64,000 nt of DNA from positions 1-64,000 of the forward strand of contig DATBHW010000011.1 in assembly GCA_036557285.1 (NCBI GenBank), given 5' to 3'. Within the stretch, counting starts at the first letter, position 1, and the number at the start of each line of letters is the position of its first letter. Source of the stretch: Ktedonobacterales bacterium. Lineage in GTDB: Bacteria > Chloroflexota > Ktedonobacteria > Ktedonobacterales > DATBGS01. Shown here piece by piece: positions 12,583 through 20,985 of the stretch. The translations under genes and the position numbers were made by a program. Under the pieces are notes generated by a model. It saw only the letters and a program-made list of their open reading frames with translations. It had not been told where the DNA came from and searched no databases.

Positions 12583-12958
12583 CGGTGGCCTCCAAATGAA
12601 CCAGGGGTGAGAAGGATACGATTAAGTGCGAAAACGTACTCTTTCAACGTGCTGTTTTACCACATGTTCTTTCTCAGTCCTCTTTCTCAGTAATCTACCA
12701 CCAGGCCAGAGAGTGTCAAGCGGCGCTGGCTGCTTTCTGATAGGGTGGGAGGCAGCCACTTATGGCTTGATATGTGGCTGCATCTCAGCATGAGATATAA
12801 TGGTCCTGATCCTGCGGTCTGTGTTTGATGTCAATCGGATGCGGGAAGGGGAGAGACGGGAAGCAGAATGGCGTGAGAACAGCAGAGCGCAGTCTAAGCT
12901 GAAGCGAAAGGAAGGAGGAGCGCGGTCAGCCAATGCGGATTGGCCGCGCGCCACCAGG
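12583..12958. other. Divergent intergenic region with direct repeat
   Basis: Minus-strand promoter candidate for the DUF1786 gene: TTGAAA (12647-12642) and TTAATC (12625-12620), 16-base spacer. A 10-base direct repeat CTTTCTCAGT occurs at 12669-12678 and 12682-12691, just upstream of it. On the plus strand TATAAT lies at 12796-12801. The frame open from 12800 begins inside this -10 element, so those first codons are unlikely to be translated. Confidence 0.4.
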
Positions 12959-13312
12959 ATGGAAGACATCCGCTTTGACCGGCAGTTCCGCACCCCCTAT
13001 TCGGAAAGCTACGCGATTATGCAGGGGAATAGCCGCGTAGGCTCGGTGGACATTCATTTCACTACCACCTCCGTTCATGGGACACTGATTCTGGAACGCG
13101 AATTAGAAGAGTCTGAGATCGCCAAACTGATCGAGCAGATCGATGAGGATCTGGTCTGGTCTGCCGATACGACGCGCGAAGATTTCCTGGTCAGCGTCTA
13201 TGTCGGCAAAGATGTCGGGTTCTACAGCGATGACTATTTCGATGAAGACGATGACGAGGATGATTTCGAGTTGGAGCTAGAGGACGAGGAAACCGGAAAC
13301 GGAAAGCACTAA
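12959..13312 (+). CDS. Hypothetical protein with acidic tail
   Basis: About 117-residue protein starting MEDIRFDRQFRTPYSESYAI. An alpha/beta-like core (residues 1-90) is followed by a strongly acidic Asp/Glu tail (about 92-113), typical of proteins that bind basic partners or are highly soluble. Start choice is uncertain: the frame is open from 12800, with further ATGs at 12839 and 12959. I chose 12959 because the upstream part is low-complexity, basic and overlaps a -10 hexamer, but no good ribosome site precedes it (AAGGAGG lies 40 bases upstream). Convergent with the response regulator, stops 15 bases apart. No family recognised. Confidence 0.6.
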   Translation: MEDIRFDRQFRTPYSESYAIMQGNSRVGSVDIHFTTTSVHGTLILERELEESEIAKLIEQIDEDLVWSADTTREDFLVSVYVGKDVGFYSDDYFDEDDDEDDFELELEDEETGNGKH

Positions 13313-13327: not shown

Positions 13328-14032
13328 TCATTCCTCCAACAGGCCGCGCCGCATCGCATATTTGACCAGTTCGGCGCGGCTATGGAGGTTGAGCTTGTCC
13401 ATGATGTGCGTGCGGTGGGTATCCACCGTTTTCGGGCTGATAAAGAGCCGCTCGGCGATCTGGTTGTTGGTGAGGCCCTCGGCAACGAGCTTCAGAATCT
13501 CGCGCTCACGTTCGGTCAGCCCGCTATAGCTATCTTTCTCTTCCCCAGTGCGGACGCGCTGTAAGTAATCTCCGACCATCATGCTTTGCGCAGAGGGTGA
13601 GAGGTAAAATCGGCCAGACTGTACGGCGCGGATAGCTGTGATGAGTTCGGTGTCGGCGGCTTCTTTGAGGATATAGCCAGCGGCCCCGGCGCGCAAGACT
13701 TGAAACAGATACTCTTCATTTTCGTGCATGGTCAGCACCAGCACGCGCATATCGGGCCGCTGGCGTCGCACCTGGCGCGTGGCCTCGATGCCGTTCATTT
13801 CGGGCATGGTAATGTCCATTAAGATCACGTCAGGCTGGAGGCGATACGCCTCGGCGATGGCCTGGTGGCCGTCGCTGGCTTCGCCCACGACTTCCATGTC
13901 GGGCTGCGCATTCAAGAGCATTTTGAGGCCCTGGCGCAAGATGGTGTGGTCGTCCACCAGCAGCACTCGTATCTTTGCCTCTGCTTCTCTGCTGCCGTCT
14001 CGTCTCAGAGTGAGTTCTTTCTCTGGTAACAT
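13328..14032 (-). CDS. NarL/FixJ-family response regulator
   Basis: 234-residue two-domain regulator. Receiver domain (about 20-140): acidic pair in LLVDDHTILRQG, phospho-acceptor Asp in ILMDITMPEMNG, conserved Thr in LVLTMHEN and Lys in GYILKEA. LuxR-type HTH (about 165-230): LTEREREILKLVAEGLTNNQ, then IAERLFISPKTVDTHRTHIM. It is the partner of the kinase that starts 22 bases upstream on the same strand, so the operon is kinase-regulator. The two inverted repeats at 15379-15419 upstream of the operon are candidate binding sites. Confidence 0.94.
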   Translation of the reverse strand: MLPEKELTLRRDGSREAEAKIRVLLVDDHTILRQGLKMLLNAQPDMEVVGEASDGHQAIAEAYRLQPDVILMDITMPEMNGIEATRQVRRQRPDMRVLVLTMHENEEYLFQVLRAGAAGYILKEAADTELITAIRAVQSGRFYLSPSAQSMMVGDYLQRVRTGEEKDSYSGLTEREREILKLVAEGLTNNQIAERLFISPKTVDTHRTHIMDKLNLHSRAELVKYAMRRGLLEE

Positions 14033-14054: not shown

Positions 14055-15218
14055 TCAATCTCTGGTTTCTTGCCCTGAGTTCACTTGCAAGGATGCGCTC
14101 ACCGTATGCTTCGCGCCGTTGAGCAGATGCGCCATCGTATCGGCGCTGTCATCTGTTGCTGCTCTGGTGAGCGGAAGTCTGGCCTCAATGGTCGTTCCTC
14201 CGCCTGGCTCCGTGGTGATAATGAGTGAGCCATCCAACAGCGCCGCGCGCTCGTGCATGCCAGCCAATCCCAGGCCGCGCTCCTGCCAGGGAAGTTTCAA
14301 GATCGTTTGCGCGTCAAAGCCTTGCCCGTTATCGCAAATGGTGGCGCTGACGCTGCCCTGCTCCTCTACGACGCTGATACGCACTCTGGTGGCTTTGGCA
14401 TATTTGGCGGTATTGGTCAGCGCCTCCTGCACAATGCGATAGAGGGACGTTTCAAGCTCAGACGGCAGGCGCTCTTTGAAATTGGTGGCGACAAACTCGA
14501 CCTCGATCTGGCATTTTTGCTGATACTCTTTGATATACCAGCGCAGTGCTGGAAGCAAACCCAGGTCGTCGAGCGCGCTGGGCCGCAGATCGATGCTCAG
14601 ATTGCGGATGGCTCGCAGCGTCTGGTGAACCAGCGAGCGCGTTTCCTCCACCCGCACCCGCGCCTCTGCGCTGGCGAGACCTTCTTCCAGGACTTTCAGG
14701 CTAATGAGCAAAGAGGTGAGTACCTGGCTGGTCTCGTCATGCAGTTCGCGCGCGATGCGTTTGCGCTCTTGCTCCTGGGCTGTCAATATCTGAGTGGCGC
14801 GTGAGCGGGCAGCTTCAGCCAGGGTTTCCAGCATGGTATTGAATGCCTCGGCGAGTTGGTCAGCTTCGGGATCCTGGCCGGTCAGGGGCGCGCGCAGTTC
14901 CGGGCTGCCAGCCTGAATGCGCTGCATGGTTTCGCGGAGTTGGGTGAGCGGGTGAAAGGCGATCTTGAGCAAGACGAAGTTGATAAGCACGCTAATGAGC
15001 CAGCCAGCGGTAATGAAGCCAATCAAAATAGCTGGCCCATTGGGCTGGTGGATACGGGTTGCCAGGTAGGTGCCCAGGGTGGCGCCGACCAGGATAACCA
15101 CGCTATTGGTAATTAACACCTTAAACAGGACAGGGAGCGCCAGCAGGCTCCGGTGGCTGCGCCTGGATTCGGAAGCTGATCGACTCTGGAGGGGCAGCAA
15201 TTTGCTGGGCTGCATCAT
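14055..15218 (-). CDS. NarX/DesK-like sensor histidine kinase
   Basis: 387 residues. Two membrane segments (about 28-50 and 60-85) with almost no extracytoplasmic loop between them, then a HAMP-like linker (about 90-140), a HisKA_3 domain with the acceptor His in RKRIARELHDETSQVLTSLL (about 153-172), and a HATPase_c domain ending GLGLAGMHERAALLDGSL. The tiny external loop argues for sensing within or at the membrane, for example redox, quinone or lipid state, as in DesK. It heads an operon with the NarL-type regulator and is driven by a near-perfect promoter at 15309-15337. Confidence 0.93.
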   Translation of the reverse strand: MMQPSKLLPLQSRSASESRRSHRSLLALPVLFKVLITNSVVILVGATLGTYLATRIHQPNGPAILIGFITAGWLISVLINFVLLKIAFHPLTQLRETMQRIQAGSPELRAPLTGQDPEADQLAEAFNTMLETLAEAARSRATQILTAQEQERKRIARELHDETSQVLTSLLISLKVLEEGLASAEARVRVEETRSLVHQTLRAIRNLSIDLRPSALDDLGLLPALRWYIKEYQQKCQIEVEFVATNFKERLPSELETSLYRIVQEALTNTAKYAKATRVRISVVEEQGSVSATICDNGQGFDAQTILKLPWQERGLGLAGMHERAALLDGSLIITTEPGGGTTIEARLPLTRAATDDSADTMAHLLNGAKHTVSASLQVNSGQETRD

Positions 15219-15690: not shown

Positions 15691-16464
15691 GTGAGCGCGA
15701 CGAATCGCAGTCTGCTGGATACGATCTCGACTAAGGTCTTTGAGAGCCAGCTTTGGCGGTCTATTTTCCGTCATGGGTATCCAGATACGCCGCTGAATCA
15801 GTCATTGGTGATGATGGGGAATGTCTTCCTGCATTTACACCCGGTCAAAGTGAGCCGCCAGGCTATGCGGATCACCTATACGTGGTGCCTGGGTGGGCTT
15901 TCCTTCTTCCTCTTTCTGGCACTGACGATCACCGGCGTTTTCTTGATGTTTTATTATGTACCCTCGACGACGGACGCTTACAGAAACATCCAGGAGATCA
16001 ATACTATCGTCAATTTTGGCGCGTTTGTGCGCAATATGCACCGCTGGGCCGCGCACTTGATGGTGATTACCGTGACCCTGCATATGATTCGGGTCTTCTA
16101 TCATGGCGCTTATAAGCCTCCGCGCGAATTCAACTGGGTGGTTGGCGTTTGTCTGTTCTTTTTGACGCTCTTCCTCAGCTTCTCCGGCTACCTGCTCCCC
16201 TGGGATCAGATCGCGTACTGGGCTGTGACGGTGGGTACGAACCTGGCAAACTATGCCCCGTTCATTGGCACCCAGGCACATACCGCGCTGATCGGCGGGG
16301 TGGATGTTGGGCAGAATGGTCTGCTGCGGTTCTATGTGATTCATGTGATTGCGTTCCCGTTGATTGCGGCGATTTTTATGGCAGTTCACTTCTGGCGCAT
16401 CCGCAAAGATGGCGGCGCTGCTGGTCCGCCACCGCCGTCGCGCCGCGAGCCGGAAGAAGTCTAG
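15691..16464 (+). CDS. qcrB: Cytochrome b6-type subunit of a bc complex
   Basis: 257-residue N-terminal-type cytochrome b carrying both b haems of a quinol:cytochrome c/plastocyanin oxidoreductase. Haem ligands: H117 and H131 (14 apart) and H218 and H233 (15 apart; 15 is the b6 spacing). Cys66 in YTWCLGG aligns with the cytochrome b6 Cys that covalently holds the extra haem c(n), so a b6f/menaquinol-type complex is likely. About 50 residues of amphipathic N-terminal extension precede the usual start. Begins with GTG and a strong AAGGAGG. First gene of a five-gene operon. Confidence 0.93.
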   Translation: MSATNRSLLDTISTKVFESQLWRSIFRHGYPDTPLNQSLVMMGNVFLHLHPVKVSRQAMRITYTWCLGGLSFFLFLALTITGVFLMFYYVPSTTDAYRNIQEINTIVNFGAFVRNMHRWAAHLMVITVTLHMIRVFYHGAYKPPREFNWVVGVCLFFLTLFLSFSGYLLPWDQIAYWAVTVGTNLANYAPFIGTQAHTALIGGVDVGQNGLLRFYVIHVIAFPLIAAIFMAVHFWRIRKDGGAAGPPPPSRREPEEV

Positions 16465-16489
16465 CAATTTCTGAGAGAGGATTCGAGAG

Positions 16490-17020
16490 ATGGCAACAGT
16501 CCAAGAGCCACCCATTCAACAGATTCAGCATAAGCGCTATCGCACGCTGGCTGTGGTGAAGCAGGAGGCGGTGACGCGCATCGAGAAGCAGCTCGAAGAC
16601 TCTGTCTTCGTCTGGCCGCATCTGCTGGTGCGCGAGTTTATGGCTGCGGTCTTTATGACGGGCATCCTGACGATTTTGTCCTTGCAAATCAATGCGCCGC
16701 TGCGCGAGCATGCGAACCCGAACTTCACGCCAAATCCGGCCAAGGCTCCGTGGTATTTCCTGGGGCTGCAAGAAATGCTGCACTATTTCCCGCCGACGAT
16801 TGCGGGTGTGTTGATTCCGGGGCTGACCCTGGTGGGTCTGGCGGCGATCCCCTATGTGGATCGCAATCCGAGCCGCGCGTTTGCGGATCGCAAATTGTCC
16901 ATTACCCTGTTTTCCATTTTTGCGGTCTTTTACGCGATGATCACGTTGATGGGGAGCTTCTTCCGAGGCCCTGGCTGGCTGTGGACCTGGCCCTGGCAGG
17001 GACTCTACTTCGATCTCTAG
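16490..17020 (+). CDS. qcrC: Cytochrome bc complex subunit IV
   Basis: 176-residue C-terminal half of cytochrome b, as a separate protein (PetD/QcrC type). It has three membrane segments (about 48-66, 98-117 and 135-157) and the quinol-oxidation-site motif in the form KAPWYFLGLQE, equivalent to PEWY in other complexes; PWYF is the variant of menaquinol-using bc complexes of the Bacillus type. It follows cytochrome b by 25 bases with GAGAGG upstream of its ATG. Together the two genes make a split cytochrome b, the b6f arrangement. Confidence 0.92.
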   Translation: MATVQEPPIQQIQHKRYRTLAVVKQEAVTRIEKQLEDSVFVWPHLLVREFMAAVFMTGILTILSLQINAPLREHANPNFTPNPAKAPWYFLGLQEMLHYFPPTIAGVLIPGLTLVGLAAIPYVDRNPSRAFADRKLSITLFSIFAVFYAMITLMGSFFRGPGWLWTWPWQGLYFDL

Positions 17021-17124
17021 CCTGCGGGGCTGCACGATAGGGCAACTGATTCCTCAAGAGGAAAAGCTGCTGCGTGCTGAAGTCCTGCTCCCTTTCATCT
17101 CAATGAGTGGAGGTCCACGTTTCT

Positions 17125-17826
17125 ATGAGTATCGAGACACCGAAGAAGCCCGATGGGTCATTGCTTCCCCAGGAATATGAGGAAGCGACTGGCGGTGGGG
17201 CTGAAGCGGCTGAAATGGCCCGCAGGGGTCTCTCGCGGCGGCAGGTGCTGCGCCGGGCGGTGGGTGGTGTGCTGGGCCTGTTCGCAGCGGAGGCCACCGC
17301 CGGATCGCTGGCGATGTTCTATCCCAATCTGGCCGGACAGTTTGGTTCGCCGATTGATGTTGGCGCGAAGAGTACGTTCCCGGCGTCGGCGCCGCATGAG
17401 GCCGAGATTGACTCGAAAGGCATCTTTTACAAGGCGTCTGCTAAAGCCTATATTGTGCATCTGGCTGCCGATACCGGTTTCTTGCTGAAAGGGACGGTGC
17501 TGGGCAACCAGCTTGATGCCGAATCCTGGGTCAAGGATGGCGATGGCACCTACTGGGTGGCGTTGTACCAGAAGTGTGTGCATCTGGGCTGTAAGGTGCC
17601 TTTCCGCGATGATTGCCACAGCTTTAAGTGTCCCTGTCACGGCTCGCACTATAACGTTGATGGCGAGTATCTTGATGGCCCGGCGCCGCGCAGCCTGGAT
17701 CGCTTTGAGATCACGTTCGAGGGCGCGAATGTGGTCGTGAATACCGGCAAGATCAACAGCGCGGTGGAGCGCCCTGATACCCAGACGCGGCTGATTTCAA
17801 CCGACGGTACTGCGTGCAGCGCATAA
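17125..17826 (+). CDS. qcrA: Rieske iron-sulfur protein
   Basis: 233 residues. A polar N-terminus is followed by a twin-arginine signal-anchor (SRRQVLRRAVGGVLGLF, about 37-53), implying Tat export of the folded protein with its cluster. The Rieske fold carries box 1 C151-x-H153-x-x-C156 (CVHLGC) and box 2 C169-P-C171-H172-G-S, giving two Cys and two His ligands plus the stabilising disulfide. It takes an electron from quinol and passes it to a c-type cytochrome. I chose ATG 17125 (after GGAGGT) rather than the GTG at 17107, which lies inside that ribosome site. Middle of the bc operon. Confidence 0.93.
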   Translation: MSIETPKKPDGSLLPQEYEEATGGGAEAAEMARRGLSRRQVLRRAVGGVLGLFAAEATAGSLAMFYPNLAGQFGSPIDVGAKSTFPASAPHEAEIDSKGIFYKASAKAYIVHLAADTGFLLKGTVLGNQLDAESWVKDGDGTYWVALYQKCVHLGCKVPFRDDCHSFKCPCHGSHYNVDGEYLDGPAPRSLDRFEITFEGANVVVNTGKINSAVERPDTQTRLISTDGTACSA

Positions 17827-17845
17827 GGGCCGAAAGTAAGGAAGA

Positions 17846-18940
17846 ATGTATATGGAGATGAGTCGTCGTAGCGCGGGGCTGTGGGCCGGAGTCATCGTCA
17901 CCGCAACTGTGGTGCTGATGGTGGCGCTGGCCGTTATGGAAGCCGTTTCGTGGGGTGTGGCTGTGGGCCTCATCGCCGGAGTGGTCTTCACCCTGGCGCT
18001 GCTCTATATTTTCTTTGGGCGGTTGAATAGCGTCCAGAAGACCGGGTATGCCTCGCTGCTTGGCGTAGTTCTGATCGCGCTTTTTATTCCCCTCTTCTGG
18101 CTCAGCCAGAACAGCAGCCAGGCGAGTTTCCAGGCTGATACCTATCAGCAAACGTTGAAGCGTGGGGCCGCACTCTACGGAACCTACTGCATACAGTGTC
18201 ACGGGGCCACCGGCCAGGGTGGGACTGGCCCGACACTGAATACCCCCTCTTCAACCGATGCAAAAAGCCCGACGGTGAACAACCTGACGGATGATGACCT
18301 CACGCGCATTATCTCGGCGGGTGTGCCAGCGAGTCCGCTCGATCTCAGCAACCAGGGGCTGTCAATGCCTGCCTGGAGCGAACTCTATGGTGGGCCGCTG
18401 ACGGCGGATGACATCAGCTATCTGGTGGCGCTGATTCGCTCGTCCGACCCGACCTATCTGAAAACTAATCACCAGAATGACATGACCAACGGGTTCACCT
18501 ATGTCTACGGGCAGCTAACCACCCAGGCGCAGATCGATGTTTTTAATCAGTATTGCGCTGAGCCTTCTCAGAACCGCACTCATTGCAGCCCACCCTCTAG
18601 CTTTGGCGAGGAAGTGGACATGACCAAGAGCAATCAGATTGCCATGAAGATCGTCAATGGAGGACCAGCGGGCTGGGGGTTCGAGTTTACCAATATTAAG
18701 ATCAAGGTGGGTACCACTGTGACCTGGACAAACGTCTCCAGCGCCCAGCATACCGTCACCAGTGGTACTCCAAATAAGCCGGATGGAATATTCGACTCTG
18801 GCACGACAAACTTTCTTCAACCAAACGACCAGGGGGCATCGAGCGTCTTCAGTCATACCTTTGATACTCCTGGGTCTTTCACCTACTATTGCATCATTCA
18901 CCCAGGGATGATAGCGAAAATCACTGTGGTGTCTGGCTAG
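17846..18940 (+). CDS. Membrane cytochrome c-cupredoxin fusion
   Basis: 364 residues. Three membrane segments (about 12-32, 36-57, 69-87) anchor a class I cytochrome c domain (C115-I-Q-C118-H119, axial Met174 in GLSMPAW), a linker of about 60 residues with two extra Cys (C237, C247), and a plastocyanin-like domain (about 265-364) with an intact blue-copper ligand set H302, C349, H352, M355 (YYCIIHPGM). This gives an electron chain from the Rieske centre through haem c to copper in one polypeptide, likely delivering to a terminal oxidase or soluble acceptor. Ribosome site AAGGA precedes the first ATG closely; M3 or M5 are alternative starts. Confidence 0.9.
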   Translation: MYMEMSRRSAGLWAGVIVTATVVLMVALAVMEAVSWGVAVGLIAGVVFTLALLYIFFGRLNSVQKTGYASLLGVVLIALFIPLFWLSQNSSQASFQADTYQQTLKRGAALYGTYCIQCHGATGQGGTGPTLNTPSSTDAKSPTVNNLTDDDLTRIISAGVPASPLDLSNQGLSMPAWSELYGGPLTADDISYLVALIRSSDPTYLKTNHQNDMTNGFTYVYGQLTTQAQIDVFNQYCAEPSQNRTHCSPPSSFGEEVDMTKSNQIAMKIVNGGPAGWGFEFTNIKIKVGTTVTWTNVSSAQHTVTSGTPNKPDGIFDSGTTNFLQPNDQGASSVFSHTFDTPGSFTYYCIIHPGMIAKITVVSG

Positions 18941-19098
18941 GGGCTGCAAGGCGCGCGTCCTGGAGTATTCCTGAGCGGCAGGTTGCAGCGAGAACGCCAA
19001 AACCTGCCGCCTGGCCTTGCGCTTCTTCAAGGCAATCATAAAGGTAATCATACCGCCCGTTATGGGCCGCAGCACACGCTGGAAAGGGATTGCGATCC

Positions 19099-20985
19099 AT
19101 GCAGCAAATACGAACACAGGATCAGCCGGAGCAGCGGATGTCCTGGGCGCGGGCAATTATCCTGGCGACTGGTCTCTTTTTTGTCGCCATGATCTTAATG
19201 AACCAGTTCCCTGGATATATGTACACGGTCTTCACCGGGGCGCGGCTGACGAAATTCGAGCAGGGCATGTTGGACGTGGCGCTGGTCTCGCTGGGGCTGG
19301 CGATCCTGCTCATGGTGGTTCTCTTTCTCTTCGACCCCAAGCCAGTGATCCCGCCGGTCCTGGTCGCGGGGTTTGGCGGCGTCCTCTTTGTGGCCGGGTT
19401 GGTCGGGCTGATTCTGATCGCTGTGACCGGCCATCAATACCTGCCTGATACCCCCGATTTCCCTGCTGGAACGGGCGGCACGCTCTTTGGCTCCACCTGG
19501 GGACTCCAGGCGCAGAGTATCGACCTGGAAGCCGTCAGCATGATCCTGATGGGGACCGGCTTTGGCGTGCTGGTCTACGCACTGCTTGCCCTGGCTGGCT
19601 TCCGCCAGGGGCTGGTCGGCGCGACGCGCGATTTCCTGGCCTGGGGCGCGGCGATCATTTCGGCGATCTTGATGGCGGTCTATGTGCTTCTCTATACGTT
19701 CCAGGGCGACGACATTCTGGGGCTGGGGCATGGCCCGGCGCTGTTGATGAGTAACGTGGTGTTGGGCCTGGCGCTCCTGCTGGCCTTTGGGGCGGTGCAA
19801 ATCTGGTTCTTGCCGGTGATGATCGCGGAGCGACGGCGCTATATGCCCGCCGCCTATCTGATCGTCTTCTTTGGGCTTTTGCCCATGTTTGCCATCTTCC
19901 TGGTGCTGTTTCTGATCGGCTACCCACTGGTCAATTGGATTCATGGGTGGGATACAACGAACTTCCTGACGGTCTGCGCGGTCAAGGCAGATGTACCCGC
20001 GACCTGTACCTACACGCAGTACAGCGGCTATATTCTGGCGACGATTGCGAATGGGCAGTTTTTTGTTGCCGGGCTGGCGGCGATTTACTGGTGGCGCAAG
20101 AATCGCCCGGCAGTGATCTTAAGTACGGTGGTGGGCTTCCTGCTCTGCGCCTTTGCCGCTGTGATCATTCACACTGACGATCAACTGCGCGTGGCGCTTT
20201 TTATTGGGACAGCCGTCCTGCTGCTGGCAATGATCTGGACCTATTCAACACGCCATGAATATGCCTCGGTGGCGGCAGTGCAGTTGGGCTGCGCCGGGCA
20301 GTGGCTGGTGATCGGGACAGTGATTCTGGTCTATCTGGCGGGGTTTGCCTTCTTCTCGATTCAACAATTCTTTGAGATCGAGGCGCTGGGCATTAACTTT
20401 GGCCCCGGCCCAACCCAGCTTCACGATGCGTTCTGGTCGTTTATTGTGTTTGGTGGCCTGGCGCTGGTGCAGTTTATCTTGCTGTCGCGCCGCTATGGTC
20501 TGAGCGGGCTGCGCAAGTTTTCGTTGTGGATTGTAATGCTGGGCATTACGCTGCTCATCATCAGCGGCATCCAGTTTAGTCTGGAATTTGGCGCTGGCGT
20601 CAAGGGGCGGCTGCTGATCTCCGGCACGACGATGTATGTCGTCGGTTTGCTCTTTGTGTTCCTGGGTTCGGCTTTTGAGATTTTCAACGCGCTCTGGGTG
20701 GGGAAACGCTTCTGGGGAATGCTCAGTTTCTTTACGCTGGGCTTCTTCCTGCTGCTCTCGATTAACCCGCTCGCGCTTATCATCAAAGACGCCACGCTGC
20801 CGACTGGTATCCCCTATACGCTGGCGGCCAGTCAGGAACTGATGAGCGCCTGGGTGACGGCGATTGCCTTCGGAGTGCTTGCCGGGTCCGGCGCGGTAAT
20901 CTCCAGTGTGGTCGGGCGCATCAGGCGTCCACGCGAAGAAATGGCGACGAATGGGACCGGGGTGGTAGCGACCACCGGGGATTAG
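19099..20985 (+). CDS. Unrecognised polytopic membrane protein in bc operon
   Basis: 628 residues with about 16 predicted membrane helices and very short loops; the longest are near residues 108-140 and 275-304, the latter with two Cys (TVCAVKADVPATCTY). I do not recognise a family. There is no His-His pair or conserved His pattern of haem-copper oxidases, no NuoL/Mrp signature and no CxxCH. As the last gene of the cytochrome bc operon, about 160 bases after the cytochrome c gene and before a strong terminator, it is probably a partner of the complex. Start ATG 19099 follows GGAAAGGGA; the upstream in-frame start at 19090 is less well placed. Confidence 0.75.
   Translation: MQQIRTQDQPEQRMSWARAIILATGLFFVAMILMNQFPGYMYTVFTGARLTKFEQGMLDVALVSLGLAILLMVVLFLFDPKPVIPPVLVAGFGGVLFVAGLVGLILIAVTGHQYLPDTPDFPAGTGGTLFGSTWGLQAQSIDLEAVSMILMGTGFGVLVYALLALAGFRQGLVGATRDFLAWGAAIISAILMAVYVLLYTFQGDDILGLGHGPALLMSNVVLGLALLLAFGAVQIWFLPVMIAERRRYMPAAYLIVFFGLLPMFAIFLVLFLIGYPLVNWIHGWDTTNFLTVCAVKADVPATCTYTQYSGYILATIANGQFFVAGLAAIYWWRKNRPAVILSTVVGFLLCAFAAVIIHTDDQLRVALFIGTAVLLLAMIWTYSTRHEYASVAAVQLGCAGQWLVIGTVILVYLAGFAFFSIQQFFEIEALGINFGPGPTQLHDAFWSFIVFGGLALVQFILLSRRYGLSGLRKFSLWIVMLGITLLIISGIQFSLEFGAGVKGRLLISGTTMYVVGLLFVFLGSAFEIFNALWVGKRFWGMLSFFTLGFFLLLSINPLALIIKDATLPTGIPYTLAASQELMSAWVTAIAFGVLAGSGAVISSVVGRIRRPREEMATNGTGVVATTGD

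Follow-up and report, generated by a model that had tools for sequence, protein, structure and literature searches.

A b6-type bc operon of Ktedonobacterales encoding a cytochrome c-cupredoxin fusion, with a haem site predicted to be dispensable among relatives, and an apparently obligate multi-helix partner protein

Introduction

Complexes of the cytochrome b6f and b6 type contain a split cytochrome b with a separate subunit IV, a Rieske protein and a cysteine at the haem c_n position, all of which are also encoded by the operon described here. In the sulfocyanin-containing bc-oxidase supercomplexes of Sulfolobales, a blue-copper protein acts in the place of cytochrome c; it forms a subunit of its own there, and the organisms concerned are poor in cytochrome c. 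A further point of reference is provided by the plastocyanin-, halocyanin- and amicyanin-type cupredoxins, with which the fusion protein described below has in common both the fold and the complete set of type 1 copper ligands, four in number.

The window, by which is meant the whole stretch of 64,000 nucleotides that was analysed (C11:1-64000 of a 5.1-Mb assembly from a Ktedonobacterales bacterium), carries on its forward strand, at 15691-20985, a five-gene operon encoding cytochrome b, subunit IV, a Rieske protein, a cytochrome c-cupredoxin fusion and a 628-residue protein, referred to here as the partner. No description of either the fusion or the partner was found in the open-access papers searched, which is weak evidence.

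The operon and its core genes

The core genes and a divergently oriented regulatory pair are located as follows.

13328-14032, reverse strand: response regulator (Pfam, LuxR-type), divergent from the operon
14055-15218, reverse strand: histidine kinase (Pfam, HisKA_3), divergent from the operon
15691-16464, forward strand: cytochrome b, b6-like, 257 aa (Pfam Cytochrome_B, E 1e-47; NCBIfam ExtP, 303.7 bits, exceeding the cut-off of 290)
15886-15888, forward strand: codon of Cys66 of cytochrome b (in TYTWCLGG), invariant in 38/38 operons
16490-17020, forward strand: subunit IV, 176 aa (Pfam Cytochrom_B_C, E 3e-11)
17107-17826, forward strand: Rieske iron-sulfur protein (Pfam Rieske, E 2e-8), whose cluster-binding motifs CVHLGC and CPCHGS are both invariant in 38/38 operons

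Judged by its sequence, the Rieske/cytochrome b complex of the window is of the b6 type, having a split cytochrome b, a separate subunit IV and Cys66, which we take to correspond to the cysteine of cytochrome b6 to which haem c_n is attached. An open reading frame for subunit IV was found in all but one of 37 operons (L070). Homologues of the kinase/regulator pair adjoin the bc operon in approximately 20 of 40 related loci and the pair may regulate it. A 170-aa protein encoded nearby (12800-13312, forward strand) has no Pfam match; homologues of it lie close to the bc operon at 20 related loci, with identities of 59-77% among the rows shown. The window's own genome also encodes a distant second cytochrome b (35% identical), outside the window (G000:C11:103635-104162, reverse strand).

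The cytochrome c-cupredoxin fusion and the loss of its haem site among relatives

The fourth gene of the operon has the following features.

17846-18940, forward strand: cytochrome c-cupredoxin fusion, 364 aa, with an N-terminal three-helix anchor (from Pfam, hydrophobic segments and ligands)
18188-18202, forward strand: haem c motif CIQCH, residues 115-119
18365-18367, forward strand: Met174 (in LSMPAW), distal haem ligand, conserved in 23/41 homologues
18677-18928, forward strand: cupredoxin domain with copper ligands H302, C349, H352 and M355

An earlier note on this DNA, made from the sequence alone, had described a single polypeptide with three membrane helices, a haem c site (CIQCHG with Met174) and a complete set of blue-copper ligands. 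This description is borne out: the open reading frame contains three hydrophobic segments (residues 16-34, 38-56 and 69-87), and the haem and copper ligands are all found at the positions that it gave. The fusion is matched by Pfam Cytochrom_C/Cytochrome_CBB3 and also by Copper-bind, and it is predicted to be a type 1 copper protein, with His, Cys, His and Met ligands in a cupredoxin fold.

The two redox sites have fared very differently among relatives. In 41 fusion homologues the copper ligands are invariant (41/41), whereas the haem-ligating histidine is retained in 24, being replaced by Tyr in 13 and Phe in 3 and unreadable in one. The c-type haem signature of the exit subunit (CxxCH and Met174) is thus present in the window and absent in at least 18 relatives, a total that includes two additional sequences from one assembly (G034); CxxCH is kept in 27. 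In the haem-less fusions, which are confined to family f2 (genera g2, g17 and g19-g26), CxxCH has become C-x3-C-Y/F, and neither the distal Met nor the GxxGQGxxGP loop is present. When the rows of a 28-sequence fusion alignment, 14 of them haem-less, were scanned with Pfam, Copper-bind was matched by 28/28 and Cytochrom_C by 14/28. A structure model of a haem-less fusion (pLDDT 88.4) has the cupredoxin fold in all of the best 50 fold matches shown. On a tree built from cytochrome b, subunit IV, the Rieske protein and the partner, haem loss requires one to three events, and a single haem-less clade is not rejected (p-AU 0.199). Judged from this comparison of sequences, relatives can do without the haem c site in the fusion, but not without the copper site.

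Loss of cytochrome c maturation was considered as the cause and rejected, as the cytochrome c assembly family is found in 47/47 genomes and the haem c of the oxidase persists: in haem-less genomes, oxidase subunit II has both CuA and CxxCH intact (8/8 read). The loss of the haem motif is specific to the fusion. The presence of ResB does not correspond to the haem pattern. Each haem-less genome has one PF00034 match, located beside COX1, although this profile may miss c-type cytochromes of too great divergence. One assembly (G034) has two differing copies of the operon, both haem-less (C551 and C132; L173 and L174), which may represent a true duplication or mixed bins (contamination estimate 7%).

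It could be argued that the haem-less group still carries a c-type haem, attached through C-x3-C with Tyr or another group as axial ligand. Both cysteines are indeed preserved, and attachment of c-type haem through unusual motifs is known elsewhere. Against this, Phe, which is unable to ligate iron, occupies the position in three sequences. The haem-less fusions as a group have also lost the distal Met, the GxxGQGxxGP loop and the match to the Cytochrom_C profile, and we consider such retention decidedly unlikely. If haem is absent from these proteins, the copper site probably takes electrons directly from the Rieske centre.

The partner protein

The last gene of the operon begins with an ATG at 19099, preceded by a GGAAAGGGA stretch, and ends with a stop at 20985.

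19099-20985, forward strand: order-specific partner protein, 628 aa, 16 helices (from homologues and an AF2 model)
19144-19239, forward strand: helix 1 (residues 16-47), matching the first anchor helix of accessory proteins (joint profile E 1.4e-3)
19975-20007, forward strand: extracytoplasmic loop with C293, P300 and C303, invariant in 41/41 homologues
20017-20100, forward strand: helix 8 (residues 307-334), matching the second anchor helix of accessory proteins (joint profile E 1.3e-4)
20506-20982, forward strand: C-terminal extension, helices 13-16, absent in family f2

The estimate of about 16 helices in the earlier note proved accurate, as an AF2 model computed from 41 homologues contains exactly 16 long helices (pLDDT 80.4, pTM 0.82), and loop charges are consistent with both termini being inside. 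The reading frames are not chance ones, since the 41 homologues (27-98% pairwise identity) have 27 invariant columns. In family f2 the protein is a shorter, 12-helix form that ends near residue 470, and helices 13-16 are therefore optional.

The absence of an oxidase, Mrp or NQR signature, also noted earlier, extends to every search that was made. The partner has no match in Pfam or NCBIfam, none in the PDB by sequence, whether as a single protein or as a profile, and nothing significant when its model is compared with PDB folds using Foldseek; profile search and structure prediction of the lone protein, which had been proposed as a check, thus found no known family, whether Mrp, Nqr, oxidase, NrfD/ACIII or other membrane subunits and transporters. 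The top Foldseek matches, membrane pyrophosphatases, were rejected (best E 0.27, TM 0.23). A hidden oxidase-like or b-haem protein was likewise rejected, as only one His is invariant. Profile self-comparison gave a best E of 0.04, and no internal repeats are claimed.

The invariant residues, which include R18, D79, P82, R245, C293, P300, C303, H358, E387 and C398, are placed in loops and at helix ends. C293 and C303 probably form a disulfide. Across the 41 homologues, mid-helix positions hold no conserved charged residue; conservation of this kind is seen only nearer the helix ends, at R18, where helix 1 begins, and at Q458, close to the cytoplasmic end of helix 12. This pattern argues for a structural or assembly role and against an ion pump or a bis-His haem protein. 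Of the two functions put forward in the earlier note, a scaffold fits best, while energy coupling finds no support in the conserved residues. The many helices adjoining a redox complex are what an ion-translocating or energy-coupling subunit would have, but such a subunit would be hard to reconcile with this lack of mid-helix charge, with four helices that family f2 can dispense with and with the absence of any sequence or fold match to antiporter, Nqr or pump families; we regard it as very improbable.

Distribution and gene order

The earlier note had also proposed that the protein is a dedicated membrane partner, to be checked by the co-occurrence of the five genes; gene order, co-occurrence and one case of joint loss lend this strong support. 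Homologues of the partner are found in 46/47 genomes of the same order and in 0/14 other genomes of the phylum, and when 301 genomes of the phylum were searched with a profile, 38 were matched, all of the same order, the other 263 having none. In 40/40 loci, covering 26 genera, the partner adjoins the fusion on the same strand with a gap of 3-461 bp; cytochrome b and the Rieske protein are also present in 37 of these, and the remaining three end at contig borders. No homologue of the partner was seen away from bc genes in the genomes and neighbourhoods examined. As several of the genomes that carry the partner are assembled in one or few contigs, the pattern is not an artefact of draft assembly.

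The sole genome of the order without the partner (G043) also lacks this cytochrome b, and its only match to the fusion is cupredoxin-like. This 10.7-Mb genome (L189), devoid of this bc operon, encodes an oxidase subunit II with intact CuA and CxxCH. From these comparisons the partner is apparently obligate in the bc operon across a bacterial order. The lack of any recognised domain would suit a transporter unrelated to the complex, with no tie to it beyond the common operon; nevertheless, no unrelated transporter family was matched, and adjacency in every locus over so many genera, restriction to operon-bearing genomes and the joint loss make this reading scarcely credible.

Two genomes have no match to a haem-copper oxidase profile, and in a third (G017) the match is no more than a weak fragment. 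The operon is nonetheless present in all three, which are incomplete drafts, and the electron acceptor may differ between families. Separately, family f3 encodes a 722-aa protein adjoining a cbb3-like oxidase gene (G008:C25; L190, 9170-11338, forward strand), with similar frames in G005 and G011. Several repeated stretches of this protein match part of the haem-copper oxidase subunit I profile (around positions 270-413), with repeated THI/HAHINM/HAQMN-like motifs, giving it the appearance of an oxidase-like tandem-repeat protein.

Possible origin of the partner

The bc operons of other Chloroflexota, whose cytochrome b is approximately 57-71% identical to that of the window, in some cases contain an extra membrane gene after cytochrome c. 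In family f12 this gene encodes a four-helix protein of approximately 193 aa; in families f22 and f31 its product is 489-519 aa long and has a Kelch domain flanked by one helix at the N terminus and one at the C terminus. A helix pair is common to the two types (E 3e-8), and it is this pair that helices 1 and 8 of the partner match, weakly yet in a reproducible manner. The helices are short and the statistics modest; even so, hydrophobicity-preserving shuffles reached the real best scores in 0/150 cases each, and controls with reversed or unrelated alignments gave at most about 21, compared with 35.8 and 28.5 for the real matches. The Kelch types have a conserved Cys-pair loop, and in the window protein a Cys-pair loop lies ahead of helix 8.

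The four-helix and Kelch proteins occupy the same operon slot after cytochrome c as the partner. They differ from it in having a short loop or a Kelch domain between the matched helices, where the window protein has six more helices, with further helices after the pair. These likenesses in sequence are suggestive of a common two-helix bc anchor with differing inserts, the insert in this order being six helices, and the partner probably arose by enlargement of a small accessory subunit with two helices, encoded in bc operons of Chloroflexota. Kelch membrane proteins were observed directly after cytochrome c at L140-L142, L153-L155, L157, L158, L160 and L161; with their domain set between two anchor helices, they are possibly an unrecognised type of bc accessory subunit.

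This relationship bears on a further proposal, namely that the partner is not a stable subunit and instead serves as an assembly factor, or a copper or thiol maturation factor, for the fusion. Its invariant extracytoplasmic Cys pair and His358 would suit such a function, as would its constant position directly after the copper-bearing fusion. However, helices 1 and 8 have relatives in bc operons that encode a cytochrome c lacking a cupredoxin domain, the two cysteines, 11 residues apart, are more like a structural disulfide and there is no likeness to known copper chaperones or maturation proteins. A maturation factor is thus unlikely, and we favour the reading of the partner as an expanded docking subunit, as its putative ancestry and conservation pattern suggest.

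Proposed model

The five genes would together specify one b6-type quinol:acceptor oxidoreductase. Cytochrome b/subunit IV would oxidise quinol together with the Rieske centre, and the exit path for electrons would be the membrane-anchored fusion arm, leading probably to an aa3-type cytochrome oxidase, whose subunit II has its own haem c and CuA in the species checked. The partner would serve this complex alone, as a structural subunit docked either to the bc core or to the fusion. Where the cytochrome c domain is without haem, as would be the case in one family, copper alone would probably accept the Rieske electrons, the simplest route running from quinol to Rieske, to copper, to the haem c of oxidase subunit II and on to CuA. 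Taken as a whole, with its single oxidoreductase, fusion arm, docking subunit and copper-only family, we hold this account to be fairly probable. Its most specific form is that a large group of these Chloroflexota has an exit subunit without c-type haem, in which the Rieske protein passes electrons to a blue copper covalently attached to a haem-less cytochrome c scaffold, with the arm held by the order-specific 12- to 16-helix subunit; we would give this an even chance.

If the account is correct, extant species whose fusion has both haem and copper would illustrate how copper came to take the place of a haem carrier in a single protein. Naturally occurring forms of this protein range from 'haem c plus copper' to 'copper only', which makes the dispensability of a cytochrome c1/f-type haem in a Rieske/cytochrome b complex testable. 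The comparison also adds an uncharacterised, apparently obligate multi-helix gene to what is known of the bc operon in an entire bacterial order.

Comparison with known systems

The operon differs from that of b6f complexes in having no cytochrome f, in the place of which it encodes the c-cupredoxin fusion, haem-less in part of the order, and in its extra gene for a 12- to 16-helix protein. The fusion is set apart from cupredoxins of the plastocyanin, halocyanin and amicyanin type by its covalent link to a membrane-anchored cytochrome c domain and by its place in a bc operon. In contrast to the separate copper subunit of Sulfolobales, the copper domain is here fused to a cytochrome c domain that is losing its haem, in organisms that retain both the haem c of the oxidase and the genes for cytochrome c maturation.
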